Of a stretch of DNA of 64,000 bases, positions 13,937 through 62,850 are shown piece by piece (positions within the stretch are counted from its first letter, which is position 1; each line of letters starts with the position of its first letter). Source of the DNA: Branchiostoma floridae (taxonomy: Eukaryota > Chordata > Leptocardii > Amphioxiformes > Branchiostomatidae); assembly GCF_000003815.2 (NCBI RefSeq), contig NC_049980.1, positions 13,655,570 through 13,719,569 of the forward strand, read 5' to 3'. The position numbers were made by a program, and so were the translations under genes. The notes beneath the pieces are model-generated. The model ran no database searches and was not told the DNA's origin. It saw only the letters and a list, made by a program, of their open reading frames with translations.

Positions 13937-16900
13937 ATGGGGTGAGTGAATTTCTTTTCTGTTTCAGCAATAAGATGGTTTTCGTTAAAAAGGTGACTAG
14001 ATCGGGATTGTCACGTATAGGTGTGTATCTCATGTAACTGTGACAACGTTATTTGTTTGTTGCACGGTATCTTAACGAAGCAAAACGAAGTTGTCTAAGT
14101 GTTGAATATCTGAGCATGTTACGCGGACATTGAACAGTAGGTTTATACTCAAGAAAAATACACACGAAAAATATGACTGAAGGATCCCGGTTGTTTTTTT
14201 AGAGCCACAGGCTATTTTACACACACACTTAACTTGGTACGCCCTGTAACTAGCTGTTGCAAATCTTTTATTCACCCCAAACGTATATATTCACTACACT
14301 GACATGTAGACAATTAACTTGAAGCCTTTTACACTACATGCATGAATGCGGTAGCGAGTAGAGAAAAGCTATGTAACCAACGACATGTTGTGACAAGTAG
14401 AAAAGATCAGGACTAGGGTGCTGCTGGGCCAGGGAGACTGGGCGTGTCATTGAACCCCCGACGACAACTTAATGTGTCGCCTGCAAAATAATTATCTGTA
14501 TATTGCTTGGGGGTCCCAACATACCTGAGAGGAGAGACATACGTTAAGGTCATTGACGTCATGATTATTAATCACAAGCCAGAGCGGTTTATGGAAAGGG
14601 GGTCTCGTTGTGGAGATTAACACATCTATCTTTATCTAACCCTAATACAAGAAATTAAATGAAAACTCTCTTTCAGAAAATGACTAAGTAACATGAAAAA
14701 CGCCATCGTGTTTACCGACCACTTGTTTTTATTTTATTCATATTTCTGTTTTCCAGGTTCCAAGTTTGCTTAGTGCTGATCGCAATACTCCCTGTCATCG
14801 ATGCTAATAACAATGGTGACTTGTGCATTCTGTACTTGCAATGATCTATATGCTATTCTGGTATCCTAAAATTGATTATGCACCGTAGTTGGCAGTTTTG
14901 TTTTCCAAATGTGTATACACAGTTTTGATTATGTTTGCAGAATTTTCAGATTTAACCTCGCTATGTATTGCACTAATGACTCATTGATACTGACCAGATG
15001 AATATCTCTGTATATTACATATATGTGCTTTTGATCTTTTGTCATTTATCTAGAACTATTATTCTTGCATACTTCCCCTCTAATAATGTTCTGTAGCATT
15101 AATGATATTGTCCGCGTCCTTGTCGTCCTGTAGTTTCCTGTAGGCTAGTGAGACCAAGTTACCTCCCACCGGAGTTGTGGGGGGAACCCAACCCCAACAG
15201 ACTTCCCCCGTGCGTAAACTATGATATCCTGCTGCCGGAAGTGAGGAACCTTACCAACCGACTACCACAGACCCTTGCGGAATTCGGCTTGACTAATATC
15301 GAAAGTGACCTTGAAGAACTGCAGCATGGAAACTGTATGAAATTGCATTTATCTTATCCGTTCCAATGTATTCGCTCTATTTACCGCGAAATGAAATCCA
15401 TTCTTAAAGCTTGCATTGGCTTAAAGCATGCGCAAAAAAAAAAATGAAAAATGCTCGTTCTAAATGGAAGAGCAACACACACTCATACACAAAGAAACAC
15501 ACAAACGCAAACACACTTACACACACGTACATAACGTACACCAACCTGTTGAAAAACGCACACAAGCACATAAACACATCTATAAATGGATACATGCGTA
15601 CACAAACATACAAAAGCACACTGCGAGAGAGAGAAACAAGCAAGTCATTATTCTTTCAATGGCGAATACCTGCATAGCAGACGCAAATTACTCCATAATC
15701 AGCTGTTTAGGGAAATTATTTTCCTCCATTCTAAATTCACGCCTTGTCAAATACGCAGAACACAATAACCTCTTCCAGCCACACCAAGCAGGCTTCAGAC
15801 AAAACTTTAGAACTACCGATAATCTGTTTGTTTTAAGTACACTAGTTAGCAAATATCTAAACAAAAATCGTCAACTTTACGCTTGCTTCATTGATTTTAG
15901 CAAAGCATTTGATTCTGTTTGGAGAAACGGCCTCTTGTTTAAATTGAGTAAGCTCGGTATTGGTGGTAAATTTCTAAAAGTAATAGAAGGCATGTATTCA
16001 AAGACTATAAACTGTGTTAAATCTAAAAATGGATTGACTGAAACTTTTGTTACTAATTGTGGTGTGAGACAAGGGTGTAATTTAAGCCCTACATTATTTA
16101 ACCTTTTTCTTAGCGACATTGTGTCCCAATTTGACGGTGCTCCCTGTAATCCTCCATTTATGTACAACAAAACTGTCCCTTGCTTGTTGTATGCTGACGA
16201 CTTGGTAATTTTTTCCGAGTCCAAACAGGGATTACAGCATTCCTTGAACAATCTGGAAAATTATTGTGCACTTTGGAAATTAAAAGTAAATCTTAGGAAA
16301 ACAAAAATTATTGTATTTAAAAAGGGTGGCAGTCTACCTAAAAACTGTTCTCTCCTGTTTGATAATCGTGAAATAGAAATTGTAACTTGTTATACTTATC
16401 TCGGTATTATTGTGAGTGCAGCTGGCACGTTTAAAGCTAACAACAAATACCTGAGTGGCAAAGGTCTGAAGGCTTTATTCGGAATAAAACAATCTTTAGA
16501 TAAAGCCACCGCCTCATCACCAGTTAGAAACAAACTTTTCGATGCATGTGTCAAACCTATTCTACTTTATGGCTCAGAAATCTGGGGCGCATTAAAAAGC
16601 CCTAAAACCTGTCCCATTGAATCTGTTCACCTTAAATTCTGCAAACAAGCACTAAATATCCCCAGACCAGCATCTAACCTTGCCACAAGAGCGGAATTAG
16701 GGAGGTACCCCATTCAACTGGAAGCCTCCCTGAACGCTATCAAACACTTTCTAAGAATCCGTCAAAACGTGCCAGCTGACAGTCTACAAGCCGACGCCCT
16801 ATCTTGTCAATTACAACTAGATGCAAATGGAAACAAGTGCTGGGCGTCCGGCGTTCGTAAGATACTGGAGGAATGCGGTTTTGCCTACATATGGAGATCT

Positions 16901-18567
16901 CAGATATCTCTAGGAACAAACCTATTACCTATAACCAACGCCATCAGCCAACGATTAAAGGATATTTATATTCAAACATTTAAAGCTGAAATACACAATG
17001 ACAACCGGGACAAATCTTTCGGTAACAAATTACGAACCTATAGATTATTCAAGACTATTTATAAAGAAGAAGAATATCTGATGGTGAAAAACATACAACA
17101 CAGAGTGGCTGTCACTAAACTCCGGATTAGTTGCCACAAGTTACATATCGAAACTGGAAGGCACAACCGCACCCCTCTGCAGCATAGAGTCTGCCAATTT
17201 TGTGATTTGCAACAAGTAGAAGATGAACAGCATTTTATTTTACACTGTAAACTGTACCATAATGAACGGATTGTGCTTTATGAATATATAAGAAAAGAGT
17301 TCCCATATTTTGAACACCTTAATGCAACGGATAAATTTCTATTTTTGATGCGCCTAGACAAACCCTGTATATCAAACATTATCTGTTCCTATATCTACAC
17401 CTGTACAAAGAAGCGAGAAGATGTCGACCATCCTGTTAGCTTAGTACCTTCAGCTAGTTAATTGTATCTTGTTGTTTTTGCATATGTTTGTTATGTCTGT
17501 TATCAGTCATGTCTGTTATCAGTGACCTGTACCTAGCCCGTCGAGGCATGAATGTACAATAAAGGTCTTTCATTCATTATCACATGTGTAACTAGGCAAT
17601 TTTGAACCCTCCTTTTTGTTGTTGTTGTTATAGGTACGGTTCTCTTGAAGGGTGAGGTCGGTCCGGTCCACTGCGGAGATGAAACAGCCCAGCACTTTAC
17701 CCGTGTGGGGCTTGTGATCCATCTCATCTACAACGTCACCGTCGGTGGGGACGAGCAACTTTTTGCCTTCGCTTCCGAGCGATTCGAGAACCTTACAGCA
17801 AATGATACTCTTGAAGGTTAGTGGCTGCCTATATGTTGCAGAAAAATAATATTATCACTGTTTTGAATGATGGACATTGAGAATTAGATAGGGCAATTGC
17901 TATTTCAGGCAAGAGTCTCGCACAGTGTATGAATTATCGTCTTGATGTACATCCTTAGCACTCGTTCTTTCAGTATTTCACTCCATTTATATACCATATA
18001 TATGTATGATATACCATATTTAGGGGAGTTTCCTATGTTTCACTCTGTACCACCCCTGTGGAAGTAAAATGTATTGTTTTCCGCCAAATCTTGACATTCA
18101 TTCATCTCGGCAATTCCGGGGCCAAATGACCTGAAATTTATCACTAGATGTTTAAGTGAGTGGTGAAATGTTACTGATAAGAGAACCAGCTGCAGGGTTT
18201 CAGTCTTCTAATTCTTTTCAAATGCACTCTCCACACAGGCCCTGTTCAAAGCCTACAGGACTCTGTGGAGGGGTTTAATGGAAGCTACCCAGCCGCCAGC
18301 GCCGAGGCAATGCCGTCCCTGGTACAGGACTACTACGATCTCCTGGACAGCTTCAACTGCAGCACCAGCGGCCACAACTGTAACCTGACCCGCGGGGAGG
18401 AAGCCGTGGTACCGTTAGATGAGCGCTGGTCTATTGTTGCAAGGCAGGGCTTTGAGTATGAGCCCAGTGACTCGAGGAGAGCCATAAGGCTCAGATGTCT
18501 CTTTTTGTCTTTTCGTGCTTTAAGATTGATTCCAAGGATTTTCGCACTTTGGGTCCGGGTGAACTGA
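13937..18567 (+). CDS. Orphan secreted glycoprotein, five exons
   Basis: I do not recognise the family. Proposed coding exons are 13937-13941 (ATGGG only), 14757-14815, 15149-15334, 17634-17816 and 18240-about 18567. All have GT/AG borders, and the frame is kept through the last three introns, all phase 1. The start gives [20 protein letters not shown], a clear signal peptide. The mature part has [18 protein letters not shown], then [20 protein letters not shown], then [15 protein letters not shown], then [15 protein letters not shown]. It has at least five cysteines and about eight N-X-S/T sites, so it is extracellular. The region after RGEEAVV may be wrong: the frame stays open to 18567 but the C-terminal 45 residues are basic and hydrophobic, and a donor could end the exon earlier (for example before 18559). 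A helical cytokine-like fold is possible but unproven. Intron 3 holds a LINE. Confidence 0.6.
15660..17582 (+). mobile_element. 5'-truncated non-LTR retrotransposon (LINE) with open RT frame
   Basis: An uninterrupted frame runs to the stop at 17461. From about 15680 it shows reverse transcriptase blocks in order: [51 protein letters not shown] and the catalytic [11 protein letters not shown], then the thumb. A C-terminal Cys/His cluster is [25 protein letters not shown] at 17558 and the repeated ATTCATT end mark the 3' terminus. The endonuclease and ORF1 are missing, as in a 5'-truncated insertion. The family is jockey/CR1/L2-like; I cannot name the clade. The intact frame argues for a recent insertion. 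It lies in the same sense within intron 3 of the secreted-protein gene. The apparent 60 residues upstream of the RT come from a CA-rich stretch and are not part of it. Confidence 0.85.
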
Positions 18568-50998: not shown

Positions 50999-52196
50999 AC
51001 TGAAGAGATCTGGAAGAAACAGGTCTTTTATACTCTAACTATGAATCAGACAATTTCAGATGTCCAATAGGAAAGGTTGTAAGACAATTCAGACTGAAGA
51101 CAATTTGGATTCCAAAGAAAACAAAGCTAAGCCAAAGTCAATCTGAAGACAATTTGGATTTCAAAGGATATCAAGGCTAAGACATAGTTAATGCAAATGA
51201 GTCAATTAGCTCCTGTTGTTTTAGTTACAGGAGCTAAAAGTTTTGTTGCCGGGGGGGGGGGGTAGTGCTATGTCCCAAGTGCCGGAAAGTTCCATACGTA
51301 GCCCCCCTTTTCTGTTGAGAGTGGGATTGTATATTCTCTCGTATATGGCCTCTCTAACTCCCCGTTCAAACCAGCGGGCTTCACGGTCTAGGATGTCGGT
51401 AGATTGGAGGTTGAAGGAATGTCCTTGGTTGTGTTCTAGGTGGTTGAAAATAGCAGAAGAGTTGCCGTTGGCCTTCGGTTTGCAATGTTCTTGGTATCTT
51501 GCTTTTAGTGGACGACTAGTCTCACCAATGTATGTGTTGTTACAGTTGGGTTCCTCGCATTTGAGTCTGTAGATTACATTGGCCTTAGTACCTTTCTGTG
51601 GTTTGTCTTTAGGATGTACCAGTTTGTGTCGGAGGGTTGAGTGAGGTTTGAAGTTAGTGGCGATGTTGAAGTTTTGGAAGATCGGTCTGAGTTTTTCCGA
51701 AACTCCTTGGACATAGGGGATGGTAATGTTGGCTTTCTTTCTGTCGGTCACTGGTTTGCACTTGGCTGTTTTCCTTGAGTGGTCCGAGGGTTTGAGGGCT
51801 TTGTTGAAAGTCCAGTTTTGGTAGCCACATTTGTTCAATGCACTTCGGAGGTGTTTGTGTTCCTCTGTTTTGGCTTTGTCAGATCGAGGAAACAATGCTG
51901 TCTGCCCGGTGATACAAGGTTTTAATCACTGCCAGTTTGTGTTCCAAAGGGTGGTGAGAGTCAAAGGCCAGATATTGGTCAGTGTGCGTCGGTTTCCTGT
52001 ACACTTCGAACTGAAGGCTGCCGTCCTTCTCTATGATAGTTTTGGTATCTAGGAAGGGGAGCATGTTGTCATGACTTGACTCCTGTGTGAACTTGATGTT
52101 CTTATCTACTTGGTTGATGTCTTCATTCATAGTTAGAGTATAAAAGACCTGTTTCTTCCAGATCTCTTCAGTGTCACTGACGAAGGATAGTGGATT

Positions 52197-54308
52197 GGCG
52201 AAGCGTTCATGTAAGCCATCACGAAATCGCCGGCAAATGCAGCCAGGGGTGCGGGCAAATGCAGCCAGGGGTGCGGGAAAACTTCGGGCCCTATGACCGA
52301 ACGCGCTATCCTCGTCATAGCCATAATATCACGGGACGGGCTACGGCATACGCAACACTCCTCTACGGGGCGTGGTAGCTAGTGGTCCGCTGTGGTAAGG
52401 TGTGGTTGTTCGGTTGCCGTAGCCCGTCTCAGTCCTGTCTTACCGCATAACCACGCCTTACCACAGCGAACCACTAGCAACCACACCCGCCGTAGAGGAG
52501 TGTTGCGTTTGCCGTAGCCCGTCTCAATCCTGTTTTACCGAACAACCACACTTTACCACCGCGGACCACTAGCCCCCACGCCCCGCACAGGAGTGTTGCG
52601 TTTGCCGTAGCCCGTCTCGGTCTTGTTTTACCGAACAACCACACCTTACCACCGCGGACCACTAGCCCCCACGCCCCGCACAGGAGTGTTGCGTTTGGCG
52701 TAGCCCGTCTCGGTCTTGTTTTACCGAACAACCACACCTTACCACAGCGAACCACTAGCTACCACGCCCCGTAGAGGAGTGTTGCGTTTGCCGTAGCCCG
52801 TCTCAGTACTGTTTTACAGCAGAACCACACCTTACCACAGCGGACCACTAGCTACCACGCCCCGCACAGGAGTGTTGCGTTTGCCGTGGCCCACCTCAGT
52901 CCTGTTTTACAGCAGAACCACACCTTACCACCGCGGACCACTAGCCCCCACGCCCCGCACAGGAGTGTTGCGTTTGCCGTAGCCCGTCTCGGTCTTGTTT
53001 TACCGAACAACCACACCTTACCACAGCGGACCACTAGCTACCACGCCCCGTAGAGGAGTGTTGCGTTTGCCGTAGCCCGTCTCAATCCTGTTTTACCGTA
53101 TAACCACACCTTACCACAGCGGACCACTAGCTACCACGCCCGTCCAGGAGTGTTGCATTTGCCGTAACCCGTCTCGATCCTGTTTTACCACATAACCACA
53201 CCTTACCACATCGGACCACTAGCTACCACGCCCCGTACAGGAGTGTTGCGTTTGCCGTAGCCCGTCTCGGTCTTGTTTTACCGAACAACCACACCTTACC
53301 ACCGCGGACCACTAGCCCCCACGCCCCGTACAGAAGTGTTGCGTTTGCCGTAGCCCGTCTCAGTACTGTTTTACCGAACAACCACACTTTACCACCGCGG
53401 ACCACTAGCCCCCACGCCCCGCACAGGAGTGTTGCGTTTGCCGTAGCCCGTCTCGGTCTTGTTTTACCGAACAACCACACCTTACCACCGCGGACCACTA
53501 GCCCCCACGCCCCGCACAGGAGTGTTGCGTTTGGCGTAGCCCGTCTCGGTCTTGTTTTACCGAACAACCACACCTTACCACAGCGAACCACTAGCTACCA
53601 CGCCCCGTAGAGGAGTGTTGCGTATGCCGTAGCCCGTCTCGATCCTGTTTTACCACATAACCACACCTTACCACAGCGGACCACTAGCTACCACGCCCCG
53701 TACAGGAGTGTTGCGTTTGCCGTAGCCCGTCTCAGTACTGTTTTACAGCAGAACCACACCTTACCACCGCGGACCACTAGCCCCCACGCCCCGCACAGGA
53801 GTGTTGCGTTTGGCGTAGCCCGTCTCGGTCTTGTTTTACCGAACAACCACACCTTACCACAGCGGACCACTAGCTACCACGCCCCGTAGAGGAGTGTTGC
53901 ATTTGCCGTAGCCCGTCTCGGTCTTGTTTTACCGAACAACCACGCCTTACCACAGCGGACCACTAGTTATCACGCCCCGTAGAGGAGTGATGCGTTTGCT
54001 CTAGCTCGTCTCAATCCTGTTTTACGGCAGAATCACACCTTACTACGTCATGCAGGCGTGGGTCACTTGATACGCCGCGTGCCTGTCCGCGTCTCCCGGC
54101 GATTTCATGACTGCCTTACAAGTTTTCACGCGCTATTTGCCATCAATTTCGTGATGTTATGGCTATGACGAGGATAGCGCGTTCGGGCATAGGGCCCGAA
54201 GTTTTCCCGCACCCCTGGCTGCATTTGCCCGCACCCCTGGCTGCATTTGCCCGCACCCCTGGCTGCATTTGCCGGCGATTTCGTGATGGCTTACATGAAC
54301 GCTTCGCC
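52197..54308. mobile_element. TIR element with a 93-bp satellite core
   Basis: Near-identical terminal inverted repeats start GGCGAAGCGTTCATGTAAGC. They span about 135 bp on the left (52197-52331) and about 150 bp on the right (54157-54308), flanked by a perfect 8-bp duplication AGTGGATT (52189-52196, 54309-54316). Each TIR contains a 22-bp tandem motif, CAAATGCAGCCAGGGGTGCG-like: two copies left and three right. The interior is almost entirely a satellite array. No transposase. The insertion lies in the hammerhead-like loop of the Penelope-like right arm, so it is younger than that element. The 8-bp duplication suggests hAT or a related superfamily, not proven by the terminus. Confidence 0.85.
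52330..54050. repeat. 93-bp tandem satellite, about 18 units, with one inverted unit
   Basis: The marker GTGTTGCGTTTGCCGTAGCC recurs every 93 bp (for example 52501, 52594, 52687, 52780, 52873, 52966, 53059); one interval is 92. Units alternate in small variants (CCGAACAACC, CAGCAGAACC, CCACATAACC). The first unit (52330-52417) is in reverse orientation to all the others. The last unit near 54050 is degraded. The length is a multiple of three, so minus-strand frames such as KVWLFGKTRPRRATANATLL stay open over several units. I regard these as a by-product of the period. Confidence 0.95.
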
Positions 54309-54392
54309 AGTGGATTCTATCCAAAACGTCTGACCGTTTCAAAACCATATCCAGTTGCTTGAGTAACTATTTTTGGCGTATATACCATCATT

Positions 54393-57904: not shown

Positions 57905-60529
57905 TTAATTATTTTCCCCTCCCGGGTCCTCAACTTCCCATGGCCAGTACGTGTTAGGTAAAGTGTTGAGGGGGAGAGAAGCGCGCCGTGGTGTGTTACG
58001 GGTTCCCTCAACTTCCCATGGCCAGTAGGTGTTAGGTAAAGTGTTGAGGGGGAGGGACACACGCTGTGGTGTGTTACGGGACGCACGCAGTGGTGTGTTA
58101 CGAGTTCCCTCAACTTCCCATAGCCAGTAGGTGTTAGGTAATGTGTTGAGGGGAAGGGACGCGCGCCGTGGTGTGTTACGGTCCGCCTCAACTTCCCATG
58201 GCCAGTAGGTGTTAGGTAATGTGTTAAGGGGGAGAGATGCGCGCCGTGCCGTGTTACACGTTCCCTCTCCTGGAATCTCACATAACCAGCAGTTGTTATG
58301 GCTTTCATAGGAGGTAACACAGTGGTGCAAGGCTTCTCGAGTCACTCCGTATGAAGCAGCAAGCCTGCCATCTGTAGAATAGGCACTGTTGCTATTATAC
58401 ATTCTTTGATTTTGCCGAGTCACTGTGACTGTGGGGATCGAGGGCTCTGCAGCAGCAGCGTATGGGGTGATGGGTTCATCATCAAGACTGTGCAAGATGA
58501 CACTCGATGTTGGCTTGGCAGAATGGAGAGAAGCAGGAAGTGACCATAAGGACACTCCGGCATTTTGTCGTTTACGTCTGACAGGAAATGTGCCATTCGT
58601 CTTAAAACGCGCTGACTTTGCCGCGCTGTAGATGACATTGTCCGGGATCTCCCAGTAGATATTTGGCAGGGTAGGCAGAGGGCGCTGTGCAGCAGCTAAA
58701 TGGTCCGGGATCTCAGCGTAGGTGTGTGGAAGGTTGGGCAGAGGGCGCTGTGCAGCAGCTAAATGATCTGGGATCTCGGCGTAGGTGTGCTGTGCGTATG
58801 AGACAACATTCAGGCCTGTGGGCAATGTTCGACACGAGACAAGACCTGCAGGATCCCGTGCGTGTGTGTGTGCATCTCTGGCATCAACGTTGGCCGGTAA
58901 TCCATTGTTTCTTATCTTCAGCAGGCACCCCACAGGAATAGACAAGACCAGAACCCCGACTACAATGACTACGGTGACGGAGACGATTGCGGATTTGAGA
59001 CCACCCCCTTCTTCTGACGCGTCATGTTCAGCATAGGTCCGGGTCGGAATAGTTAGGACCTTTGATGTAGATATAAACGCAGTTGTCGTCTGGTTCCTTG
59101 GCCTGTACTCGTCTGTAGTAAAGGCACGCAGGGATGAGTGGACATGACATGATTTGGGGGGCCTCCTTGGGACCCGTGGGATGGTAAAGAGCAACTGGAG
59201 TCCCGTGAATGAATTATGCCTAGAAATCAGGACGCAGGTTACGTTCTTGCTGTGGGTACTGTTATATGGGATGTCTGAATCTACGATACTAGCAGCAGGA
59301 TCTGCGTCTTGCGTCTTGAAGAACAACATGGCCACGGATGTACTTCCTTCTCCCAAGGACACCAGTTGAAAGCTTGAGTTGCTCTTCAAGTCCACTGTGA
59401 CGCCTCGGTTTTGTTCCCATACGTGTCTGCACTGATCTATTGCGTTGTTCTTACTAGCCAGTTCATTATCACTGGCGAGGACAACAACAAAGGGAGGCGC
59501 AACGTTGACTTTCTCTACTCCAATATTCCACAAATTGGTATCGCATATGGGATAGAACGCATACCCCACTGACTGACCCCTCCACTGAATACGCCTCTCG
59601 CGTCTTCCTTGATCAGTCGTAATGCAGATAGAGAAGGTAGAGACACTAAGCAGGATGGTGTCGGTGTGCAAGAAGCGGTTATCAGAGTTGATATCTAAGC
59701 TCCATACCATTTTCTGTGGGACTTTGCCTATCGTCATCAACCTGTGTCCGCCGACTTTAAAGACGGACAGGTCCTCCAAACCCCACAGGATCTCCCTATC
59801 CAGACAAGATAAACAATTCTCTTCCAGGAACAGATCCTGCATTGTCGGTATGTTGTGAAATGCTCTAGGAGGAACGTTACTGATGTTGTTCTCTCGTGCA
59901 TTAAGCGCCTTTAGTGCATGCAGACCGCGGAACCAGGTAGGGTCTATGTGCTGTAGTAGATTACCCATCAGGTTCAGCGTTTCAAGTTTTGTCAAGCTGC
60001 TAAAGCACCCAGGGTCAATCTGTGAAATTCTGTTGTTTGCCAGTGTAAGGTCGATGAGCGCTGTCAAGCCAGCAAACCAGCTTTGTTTGACGTGTGTCAG
60101 TCTGTTTATATCCAGCCTTAACGCACTGAGGTGCGAAAAACCACCGAATGTGTTCTCCTCCACATCTACAATGCCACCCTCAACCAAAGCTAATGTTTCT
60201 ACTGCAGAGTGGTTGAAGGCCGATAACTTCTCTGCCGACAGAACATCGAAATGGTGGCCACTTATTGAGAGATGTGGCGGTACCTCTATGGAACATGGTT
60301 TGGCGGGGACAGGTGTACCAGTGCCAGTGACATTAGTATCCTGACATAGGAAACACAGCTGCTGTACAGCGGGACGCCTCTGTACGGACTCTTCAGGCAC
60401 ACAGTCATACCAGTCTGATACCTCACAGCGAAAGGGGCAGAGGCTTGTTGAGCCTGCTGATGGCGGTGTGAAGAAGGTACATATAGACGCCAGGGTCAGA
60501 AAAAACAACGTGCTTTTTCCAAGGGCCAT
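57905..60529 (-). CDS. LRR type I membrane receptor with repetitive cytoplasmic tail
   Basis: One exon, 874 codons. Signal peptide about 1-26; Cys-rich N-cap (C31, C35, C43, C59, C62); about six leucine-rich repeats from 108 to 255 (for example LTALIDLTLANNRISQIDPG, LTKLETLNLMGNLLQHIDPT); a long extracellular part to about 508 without a clear known domain, with several N-glycosylation sites; a membrane segment about 512-536 (AIVSVTVVIVVGVLVLSIPV). The tail of about 335 residues has HTYAEIPDHLAAAQRPLP twice and NIYWEIPDNVIY, with tyrosines at 583, 604 and 625, exactly 21 apart. Four copies of R-R/V-x-SLPLNTLPNTYWPWEVE fill 762-867. Repeated YxxI and Pro-rich motifs suggest docking of SH2 and SH3 proteins, hence a signalling or adhesion receptor, perhaps in immunity (inference). 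The ATG follows an acceptor-like aatgtaacag, and ccag/gtgagc near 60575 (minus strand) may be the donor of a noncoding exon. Confidence 0.88.
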   Translation of the reverse strand: MALGKSTLFFLTLASICTFFTPPSAGSTSLCPFRCEVSDWYDCVPEESVQRRPAVQQLCFLCQDTNVTGTGTPVPAKPCSIEVPPHLSISGHHFDVLSAEKLSAFNHSAVETLALVEGGIVDVEENTFGGFSHLSALRLDINRLTHVKQSWFAGLTALIDLTLANNRISQIDPGCFSSLTKLETLNLMGNLLQHIDPTWFRGLHALKALNARENNISNVPPRAFHNIPTMQDLFLEENCLSCLDREILWGLEDLSVFKVGGHRLMTIGKVPQKMVWSLDINSDNRFLHTDTILLSVSTFSICITTDQGRRERRIQWRGQSVGYAFYPICDTNLWNIGVEKVNVAPPFVVVLASDNELASKNNAIDQCRHVWEQNRGVTVDLKSNSSFQLVSLGEGSTSVAMLFFKTQDADPAASIVDSDIPYNSTHSKNVTCVLISRHNSFTGLQLLFTIPRVPRRPPKSCHVHSSLRAFTTDEYRPRNQTTTAFISTSKVLTIPTRTYAEHDASEEGGGLKSAIVSVTVVIVVGVLVLSIPVGCLLKIRNNGLPANVDARDAHTHARDPAGLVSCRTLPTGLNVVSYAQHTYAEIPDHLAAAQRPLPNLPHTYAEIPDHLAAAQRPLPTLPNIYWEIPDNVIYSAAKSARFKTNGTFPVRRKRQNAGVSLWSLPASLHSAKPTSSVILHSLDDEPITPYAAAAEPSIPTVTVTRQNQRMYNSNSAYSTDGRLAASYGVTREALHHCVTSYESHNNCWLCEIPGEGTCNTARRASLPLNTLPNTYWPWEVEADRNTPRRASLPLNTLPNTYWLWEVEGTRNTPLRASRNTPQRVSLPLNTLPNTYWPWEVEGTRNTPRRASLPLNTLPNTYWPWEVEDPGGENN
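57930..58250 (-). repeat. Intragenic tandem repeats of the LRR receptor tail
   Basis: Four DNA units code for SLPLNTLPNTYWPWEVE; periods are 78, 102 and 78 bases, the long one carrying a partial duplication (LRASRNTPQ). Units differ at few positions (YWPWEV versus YWLWEV), so the expansion is recent or homogenised. Confidence 0.85.
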
Positions 60530-62850
60530 CTGTTACATTATAACGTCCTACAAGTTTTCTTTATTCTGGGCTCACCTGGTAAATTTGTGCATCCCAAAAC
60601 AGGCGCGGCGATCGCTTTAGAATGTTCCTTTACCGACCAGCAAGGAATGTGCAGGACAGGATTCTGCATCAGAAAAAGAGAAGAAAAAACAACATGGTCT
60701 CGTGGCATTCCCTTTTAGGAATGTTTATACCCCTGTCACATTGTCGACGAGCTTTGGTCGTATTTCTTGATCGCTGTAAGGTCGGCCGATTTTAAGATCG
60801 ACATAAAGTCGTGCAAATTTTTTGCCTACAAGTCGACGCTGTCACATCGAGCGAGGCTCGTGCGAATGCCAGGGAATACATCTATGACTTTCCATGGCAT
60901 GTCATAACTTTTTGCTCGCAGACTAGGTAAGAAAAAACGTTCCTCGCGAAAATGCGATAGTTCGATAAATTTTTATGTCTTAGTTGTGAAAATGTTTAAT
61001 CAATTAATGTAGCACATGGGCAGAATAGAAGTGATCATGGCAAAAGAAATGCATGATAAATCAAACCCCGTAGCCCACATGCATGCTACCACAGTAGTCA
61101 CAACGTCAGGATTACACAATAGTTCAAAGAGAAATGACATTTGCTAACAAACAGGAGTTTGGCAAAACTCACCATCCATGCACTAATAAAACAACCCACC
61201 ACCCAAAAAGATTTGGGACCGGTCCTTGCCGGTGTGAGTGATAAAACCATTCAAGTCCAATATTGGGTAGAATCTCCCGCGCAGTCTTCGCAACCCCTGC
61301 TTAACCTATTCGGTCAGTTGGTCCGTACTTAAAAATACAATTTCTAAAGTGCAAAATTGTCGTCGCTCGGAAAAGATATTTACCTGTGATAAGTCTAGTA
61401 AACTGGTGTCTTCTAGTGTTTGAGTTTGTTGTATGTGTATTGTGCAGGAACAGGTAACATTTATCTTCAGGTCCGGGCATGTAGCTAAACAATCTTACAG
61501 GTAACGGTTACAGGCATAAGAATATTATGCATGTATACACAATCCCACTGTCAATGACTGACCTTTGACGATCAAAAACAGCCAGATGTATGTTGACAGG
61601 CCTGTCCTTTCTTCCTGGGTATTCGTGACGCCAGAAAACGTGTGATCACCGCAAGCAGCTGCAAGAGTCTGTTAATACCGAGCTGCAGACATTAAATTTG
61701 CACATGTTTTGAAGGCAAACAGCGTAATGTCATTGGTGGAAAGATGTGGGAAGTCATGACGTCATTGCCCAAGGGCTGAGGATATCACTTCTTCCTCCCA
61801 CTCAGACTAATTTCCACCGTCGTAATCGGAAGAACTGAGATGATGAGATTTTTGATAGAAAAAGAACGCTAGAGGCAGGGCAAGATAGCAACTAGGAGCA
61901 AAGAGAAGAAAAAGGAACATCAGCAAAAACTGTACATGCTCCTCCCACGATAAGTAACGGAATTAAAGACACAATTCTCAGTGCCTAGTTAAACCTTTGA
62001 CTGTTCAGTATAGGTTGAAATCTTTGTCTTTGATATACAGTATTAAGAGATGGTCGCTTAGATATAAAAAATGCAGCGACAAGCATCACTGCCCATCATT
62101 GTACATTTTCTGCCGATACAAATGGCGCTTATTCTACCAATCAGATTGAAGCTTTCAGTTATCTGCGTTATGTTCGGAGAGGGCTTAGAAATCTTTTTGC
62201 TAAAAATGAATGTACAACTTTATATTTTCCTACTGTTTGCATCAAGCACTTGAGTTTACGCACTATCTGGAATGTCGAAAGTTCTTTGAAAAAATGAAAG
62301 AAACATTGATTTGCGATGACGCCATTATTGTTGTAAGCGACATGCCAATGATGCAAGGCATCTTCTTTTGAGACCACCACGCGTGTTAAACTGGAATGTT
62401 TGAGGTCGCGTCACTTTACCCAAGTTCATTCAAGTGCTTCCTTTGATCAGCCATACAACCAATGGTGTTTAGAAACACACCTATAGCAATGCTGTTAAAA
62501 TTTGATTAACCATTAAGTCATTGATAACTCTCATAATTTCACCAGGTACCCTAAGAACGCCACATAAAAAGGTGAAATAAGACAGCTAAATGCAGTAATC
62601 TCTGAGCTATAGACACCAGGTGTTCCAAACATTCTTTCTTAACCCCGTTTTATTAAAGTGGCTGTCTTAAGTCACCAGGTGGAACCACAAAAAGTAAGTC
62701 AATAATCTACGGTGAACAATGGTGCTTTGGTGAATCCCTGTTGTTGGCCACCCAATTAGGTATTTTACCCCCAGGGTAACATTCGCAGATGTTGTAGAAA
62801 AGTAGTTTACAACGTCCTTTTCCTGATCCATGATTATCTCAAAATTGATC
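60530..62850. other. 5' flank of the LRR gene and intergenic
   Basis: The first 150 bases would hold the promoter-proximal or 5' UTR part of the LRR gene (minus strand). At 60730-60870 CCCTGTCACATTGTCGACGA and CGACGCTGTCACATCGAGCG are related strings that look like parts of a repeat. No gene is recognised. Confidence 0.4.

Follow-up and report, generated by a model that had tools for sequence, protein, structure and literature searches.

A short satellite-bearing transposon of Branchiostoma floridae, very probably derived by internal deletion from a large foldback-type element

Introduction

Foldback elements such as Galileo and those of sea urchins carry tandem repeats within their inverted arms; in Galileo these arm repeats hold extra binding sites for the transposase, which has a THAP domain. 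Helitrons and Helentrons have neither terminal inverted repeats (TIRs) nor target duplications. Tetris, a foldback element of Drosophila virilis beside which Galileo and the sea-urchin elements are also mentioned, has long inverted repeats that contain ~220-bp tandem repeats in variable unit number, and three complete copies are flanked by 8-9 bp duplications (PMC4079207). The sections of that report used here describe a short derivative (DAIBAM) that retains the ends, report satellite-like arrays of the Tetris repeat but no coding parent, and contain the authors' suggestion of Mutator for the 8-10 bp duplications (PMC4079207). Rehavkus elements are described, in the part of the source drawn upon, with a minisatellite just before one TIR, a DDE protein with a PHD finger, and a 9-bp duplication, and a duplication of 9-11 bp is given there for Mutator-like elements (MULEs) (PMC6446971). 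In some families of Ginger1 the transposase, a protein of the Gypsy-integrase type, bears a C-terminal OTU domain according to the excerpt consulted (PMC2836005).

The element described here lies in a 64,000-nucleotide stretch of Branchiostoma floridae DNA (the window), where a preliminary description had recognized a transposon with long TIRs whose interior was nearly all 93-bp satellite. As in Tetris, the long terminal inverted repeats of its family consist largely of tandem repeats, a likeness drawn from descriptions alone, and the duplication of 8 bp falls in the same 8-10 bp class (perfect in 9/18 end pairs, with one mismatch in 3/18 and more in 6/18). The repeat and the host are different, and the element has long relatives with two genes, a feature absent from the Tetris account as far as it was drawn upon. 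The titles and abstract openings retrieved in literature searches include none that describes this element.

Results and Discussion

Ends and anatomy of the element in the window

The element spans 2112 bp (2.1 kb; 52197-54308), and the borders given earlier are exact to the base. Its parts are as follows.

52189..52196, no strand: left target-site duplication, 8 bp, AGTGGATT, read directly
52197..52333, plus strand: left TIR, L-type, 137 bp, with two 22-bp repeats
52232..52281, plus strand: left 22-bp subterminal repeats, ~2.3 copies
52332..52414, minus strand: lone inverted 93-bp unit directly behind the left TIR
52415..54043, plus strand: right-arm array of 93-bp units (TRF 52407-54043, 17.6 copies)
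54044..54150, plus strand: non-satellite inner domain of 107 bp between the array and the right TIR, absent at the left end
54150..54308, minus strand: right TIR, R-type, 159 bp, with three 22-bp repeats
54202..54273, minus strand: right 22-bp subterminal repeats, ~3.3 copies
54309..54316, no strand: right target-site duplication, AGTGGATT, read directly

The two copies of the duplication agree at 8/8 bases and differ at the ninth. The TIRs are identical at 135 of 137 aligned bases, the right one differing from the left by these two bases and by one additional 22-bp repeat, which appears in the alignment as a single 22-bp gap. The array has a period of 93 with 90% matches (TRF), and the single inverted unit behind the left TIR, which is 87-99% complementary to the plus-strand units (I3-I17), is plausibly a remnant of a left arm array. 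The inner domain holds a degenerate tip-like sequence. Neither the inverted unit nor the inner domain figures in the preliminary description. The complete unit of the preliminary description (8-bp duplication, near-identical TIRs, 22-bp repeats and 93-bp array) is therefore confirmed in all its parts. No match to the window was obtained in Rfam at gathering scores.

Several other features were observed in the window. The element adjoins a 234-aa open frame (51221-51925, minus strand) that by eye resembles a Penelope-like retroelement whose end is of the GIY-YIG type, and that has no Pfam match; joining the flanks of the element into an empty site did not clearly lengthen this frame. An 875-aa frame with leucine-rich repeats (Pfam; 57905-60532, minus strand) passes at its end into in-frame tandem repeats of 78-102 bp (57928-58257), and a 665-aa reverse transcriptase frame (Pfam RVT_1; 15464-17461, plus strand) probably belongs to a non-LTR retrotransposon.

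Sister insertions and two related families

A search of the genome (513 Mb in 431 contigs) with the left TIR returned at least 48 matches (40 of 68 candidates scored). A tip pattern in IUPAC code, composed from ends already known, had 63 exact matches genome-wide, belonging to two related families, while the reversed control had 0, which excludes chance. Sorted by hand, 40 of the 63 form 20 end pairs, 5 are inner tips (in C4, C173 and C262) and 18 are unpaired. Orientation and distance alone were used to pick 18 of the end pairs, and these carry an 8/8 duplication in nine cases, a 7/8 duplication in three and two or more mismatches in six; by arithmetic with equal base use, a duplication of at least 7/8 is expected in ~4 of 10,000 pairs. 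Among the six pairs lacking a good duplication, two have a truncated tip (C4 and C15:2351), and the ends at C5:1649 may have been wrongly matched, since the right end is followed by a 155-bp array (L019:7917-8865) and an additional tip (C5:1657836-1657864), which may represent a nested or duplicated arm.

The two remaining pairs, on C13 (17743348 and 17778927) and C9 (5146018 and 5291049), have perfect duplications and were paired through their agreeing flanks, their orientation or order being wrong and N gaps adjoining them. At each of the four ends the array contains, or is followed by, a 100-base N gap or a long N run, and L-type ends pair with R-type ends; errors of scaffolding at the arrays therefore give the simpler, if unproven, explanation and the likely one, and real rearrangements (a 145-kb inversion on C9 and a circular order on C13) are less likely. 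Both end types, L and R, occur in all five family-A insertions in which both ends are visible.

Family A has the tip GGCGAAGCG, 22-bp repeats and 93-bp arrays, and family B has the tip GGCAGATGT and 111-bp arrays (whose unit includes tip-like sequence) followed by arrays of 155-158 bp. Two copies of the 22-bp sequence are found in A left ends, three copies in four A right ends and two copies in two others (L014, L016), and a single copy in L022, L023, L024, L027 and L028. The elements on C4 and C173 bridge the families, with a B-type tip outermost, an A-like tip lying 105-123 bp inward, and 93-bp arrays in both arms. The C173 element (L023:3902-5280), flanked by the perfect duplication ATTCATTC, measures 1.38 kb and contains little beyond inverted arms and 93-bp units, with both tip types. 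Three family-B elements of 6.9-9.0 kb (L019-L021) have a common middle (up to ~2.7 kb in L020 and L021), and they look non-autonomous because four frames of this middle (three in L021, one in L020) had no Pfam match. A tyrosine-recombinase frame (Pfam Phage_integrase; L027:9049-9900, minus strand) lies ~6 kb inside a lone family-A-like end.

The sister insertions, their duplications and their varying unit numbers bear out the earlier view of a transposon with TIRs and 8-bp duplications that carries a 93-bp array.

The array as part of an inverted arm

The left TIR of the element in the window is 100% identical over 137 bp to left ends on C17, C13 and C9 (L009, L011, L013), and its right TIR shows the same 100% identity, across 159 bp, to the C17 right end (L010). 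In the long copies of family A, the 93-bp units of the two arms have opposite orientations, minus strand inward of the left end and plus strand inward of the right end (in L011 a single unit is followed by an N run), and both arms are visible in a single stretch on C15 and C4. The inverted arms, which hold arrays of 93 bp or of 111/155 bp, reach 3062 nt at 87% identity (L018). The satellite is the inner part of these long inverted arms and not a captured core.

When units are counted inward from the right TIR, units 0-10 of the element in the window agree, each with its counterpart, with the 11 units resolved in the right arm of C17, in register and at 98-100% (identities from unit 0 to unit 10 of 1.00, 1.00,.98, 1.00, 1.00,.99, 1.00, 1.00, 1.00,.99 and 1.00), the outermost unit being a 60-bp partial and C17 entering N before the further six units of the window copy. 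From this register, the most plausible origin of the copy in the window is an internal deletion in a C17-type element, which left one inverted unit of the left arm. In other A right arms the register extends over the first three units (L015) or the first four (L012, L016) before it shifts, and in L014, with five units resolved, four in register are followed by a fifth at 0.94. This pattern indirectly supports the suggestion in the preliminary description that unit number changes inside the element. Mean identity between units is 0.893 within the window and 0.878-0.912 against other A copies (111 units, excluding those with N or of odd length); the units of the copy in the window thus differ from one another as much as from those of other copies, and were therefore not homogenised after insertion.

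The anatomy of a satellite-cored MITE, in which a pre-existing 93-bp satellite was captured between TIRs and then spread, the longer elements being unrelated, would suit the window copy taken by itself, and the C173 element is likewise barely more than arms and units. Such an origin is highly improbable in view of the inverted units found behind the ends of family-A copies on C17, C13, C9 and C15, in the one-ended L016 and on C4, the same inner domain preceding those units wherever it is resolved, together with the 11 units in register with the arm of C17 and the presence of a long parent. Of the earlier reading, the transposon with its TIRs, 8-bp duplications and array stands, while its satellite core does not: the array belongs to the subterminal part of the long inverted arms that larger elements possess, and the copy in the window has lost the middle.

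Long relatives and their genes

The two longest elements, one from each family, contain the same two genes in unlike order. The family-A element on C17 (16423556-16472308; nominal 48.7 kb) has a duplication, GACATATG, that matches at 8/8 bases; N runs occupy ~1.75 kb of the left part and, as far as was read, 16461787-16470968, so that both the length of this element and the connection between its halves rest on the assembly, even though the duplications match. The family-B element on C12 (~50.7 kb, of which ~24 kb were covered by reading) has a 7/8 duplication and 111-bp arrays in inverted orientation at its two ends.

The first gene encodes a transposase-like protein known from these two elements, which is 61% identical between C12 and C17 over 440 aa. 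Its frame, on the strand opposite to the frames of the second gene, is 952 codons from stop to stop in C12 and interrupted by an N gap in C17. Differences between the copies at codon positions 1/2/3 number 125/78/259 over 431 codons (dN 0.28; dS saturated and therefore not computable), and the third-position excess indicates that the protein is under constraint. Motifs read by eye include D277, D349 and E478, with invariant surroundings in both copies, and the tail contains a cysteine cluster and an OTU-like stretch (Pfam OTU E 0.013; score 16.5 bits, cut-off 23.3) whose catalytic motif is visible by eye and which had no match in PDB. The transposase-like part had no meaningful match in Pfam, NCBIfam or PDB, no PHD finger was matched in Pfam, and a 573-aa piece from C12 compared with Pfam at E values up to 10 had neither MULE nor integrase matches listed. 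No KDZ match was listed for this piece either, in a library that may hold no model for KDZ (PF18758, which we take to be the transposase domain of KDZ/Zisupton). An AlphaFold model from the two-sequence alignment was useless (mean pLDDT 36) because relatives are lacking, and none of the stretches fitting a short pattern in viral contigs (45) or prokaryote genomes (312) encodes one. Judged by its motifs, the protein is a candidate DDE-like transposase of the element.

The second, ATPase-like gene comprises at least seven exon-like frames that are collinear between C17 and C12 and 32-73% identical. One frame contains the P-loop GxSGLGKT (Pfam AAA_22 E 0.005 for the C17 frame, under the cut-off). 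A third-position bias is clear in five of the seven frames and weak in e6 (32/18/38) and e7 (41/37/55). Searched with the e7 peptide, the genome yielded five matches, of which those on C17, C12 and C235 lie inside tip-flanked elements and the other two are on C6, a contig with no match to the tip pattern; compared with C17, the C6 copy lacks a third-position bias (14/12/10; dN 0.12, dS 0.08) and shows no sign of purifying selection. The C235 element (family B, 20.5 kb), in which array-like sequence stops ~3.2 kb before e7, seems to retain the 3' part alone of the ATPase-like gene, as no upstream frame of C17 was matched in the stretch examined. The ATPase-like protein may help transposition.

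The possibility that the long elements are chance composites, with distant tips of short elements enclosing host DNA and host genes, draws some support from the middles of C17 and C4, which are partly retroelement debris and other unrelated sequence, from the assembly gaps in C17 and others, and from the two of five e7 matches outside tip pairs. It is nevertheless improbable, since the end duplications match in both C17 and C12 and the same two genes, the first clearly constrained, recur in two diverged families. Somewhat less unlikely, yet still disfavored, is a role of both genes as cargo, with the real transposase encoded by another gene (e.g., one for a trans-acting Mutator or hAT protein); the protein indeed has no Pfam transposase match and the middles of the long elements were read in part, but the invariant surroundings of D277, D349 and E478 in both copies and the retention of the first gene in both families under constraint speak for the transposase-like protein itself.

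Comparison with other transposon groups

The combination of a minisatellite next to a TIR with a DDE(-like) protein recalls Rehavkus, as far as that group is described in the part of the source used, from which this element differs in its 8-bp duplication, in its OTU-like and cysteine-rich tail and in the absence of a PHD match. The OTU-like stretch in the tail, which scores below the Pfam cut-off, may correspond to the C-terminal OTU domain of some Ginger1 families as presented in the excerpt consulted; the integrase match expected of their Gypsy-type core is absent here. The tip-like sequence in the 111-bp unit suggests extra binding sites comparable to those of Galileo, whose THAP domain has no counterpart among Pfam matches in this protein. 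The 8-bp duplication and the lack of a match to a MULE transposase domain in the 573-aa C12 piece speak against Mutator (MULE), and Helitrons or Helentrons with satellite arrays were excluded by the TIRs and 8-bp duplications.

Proposed origin and significance

The element in the window is very probably a non-autonomous copy that arose by internal deletion from a large foldback-type DNA transposon moved by its own DDE-like transposase. The parent would have arms composed, from the outside inward, of a TIR tip starting with GGC, 22-bp repeats, an inner domain and a 93-bp array, the two arms opposing each other as inverted repeats with the genes between them. Its transposase would bind the tips, and perhaps the arm repeats as well, cut, and insert the element with an 8-bp stagger, possibly assisted by the ATPase-like protein. 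The shared inverted arms would account for the deletion: where repair fails after excision, or switches its template from one inverted array to the other, the middle may be dropped, leaving short arm-only copies such as those in the window and on C173. Short copies with both ends could be moved in trans, and since the copy in the window retains both ends and the array of one arm, the same transposase could mobilize it.

Two-component designs, with a transposase and an ATPase, are found in bacterial Tn7 and Mu, and should the transposase and its ATPase partner be what moves the elements described here, they would form a two-protein system of a kind that, to our knowledge, few animal cut-and-paste elements have. 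A broader interpretation, tentative and at present rather doubtful, is that these elements form a superfamily of very large DNA transposons of animals, as yet unclassified, with a DDE transposase bearing an OTU and cysteine-cluster tail, a dedicated P-loop ATPase, and fast-changing satellite arrays serving as binding arms, whose short deletion products spread ready-made arrays. In the same genome, a short satellite-filled copy corresponds unit for unit to the arm of a long relative with genes, while for Tetris the sections used here give no coding parent (PMC4079207). The link between the copy in the window and the C17 element offers a direct route to the change from arm to satellite, to changes in array number, and to the protein that moves foldback elements.
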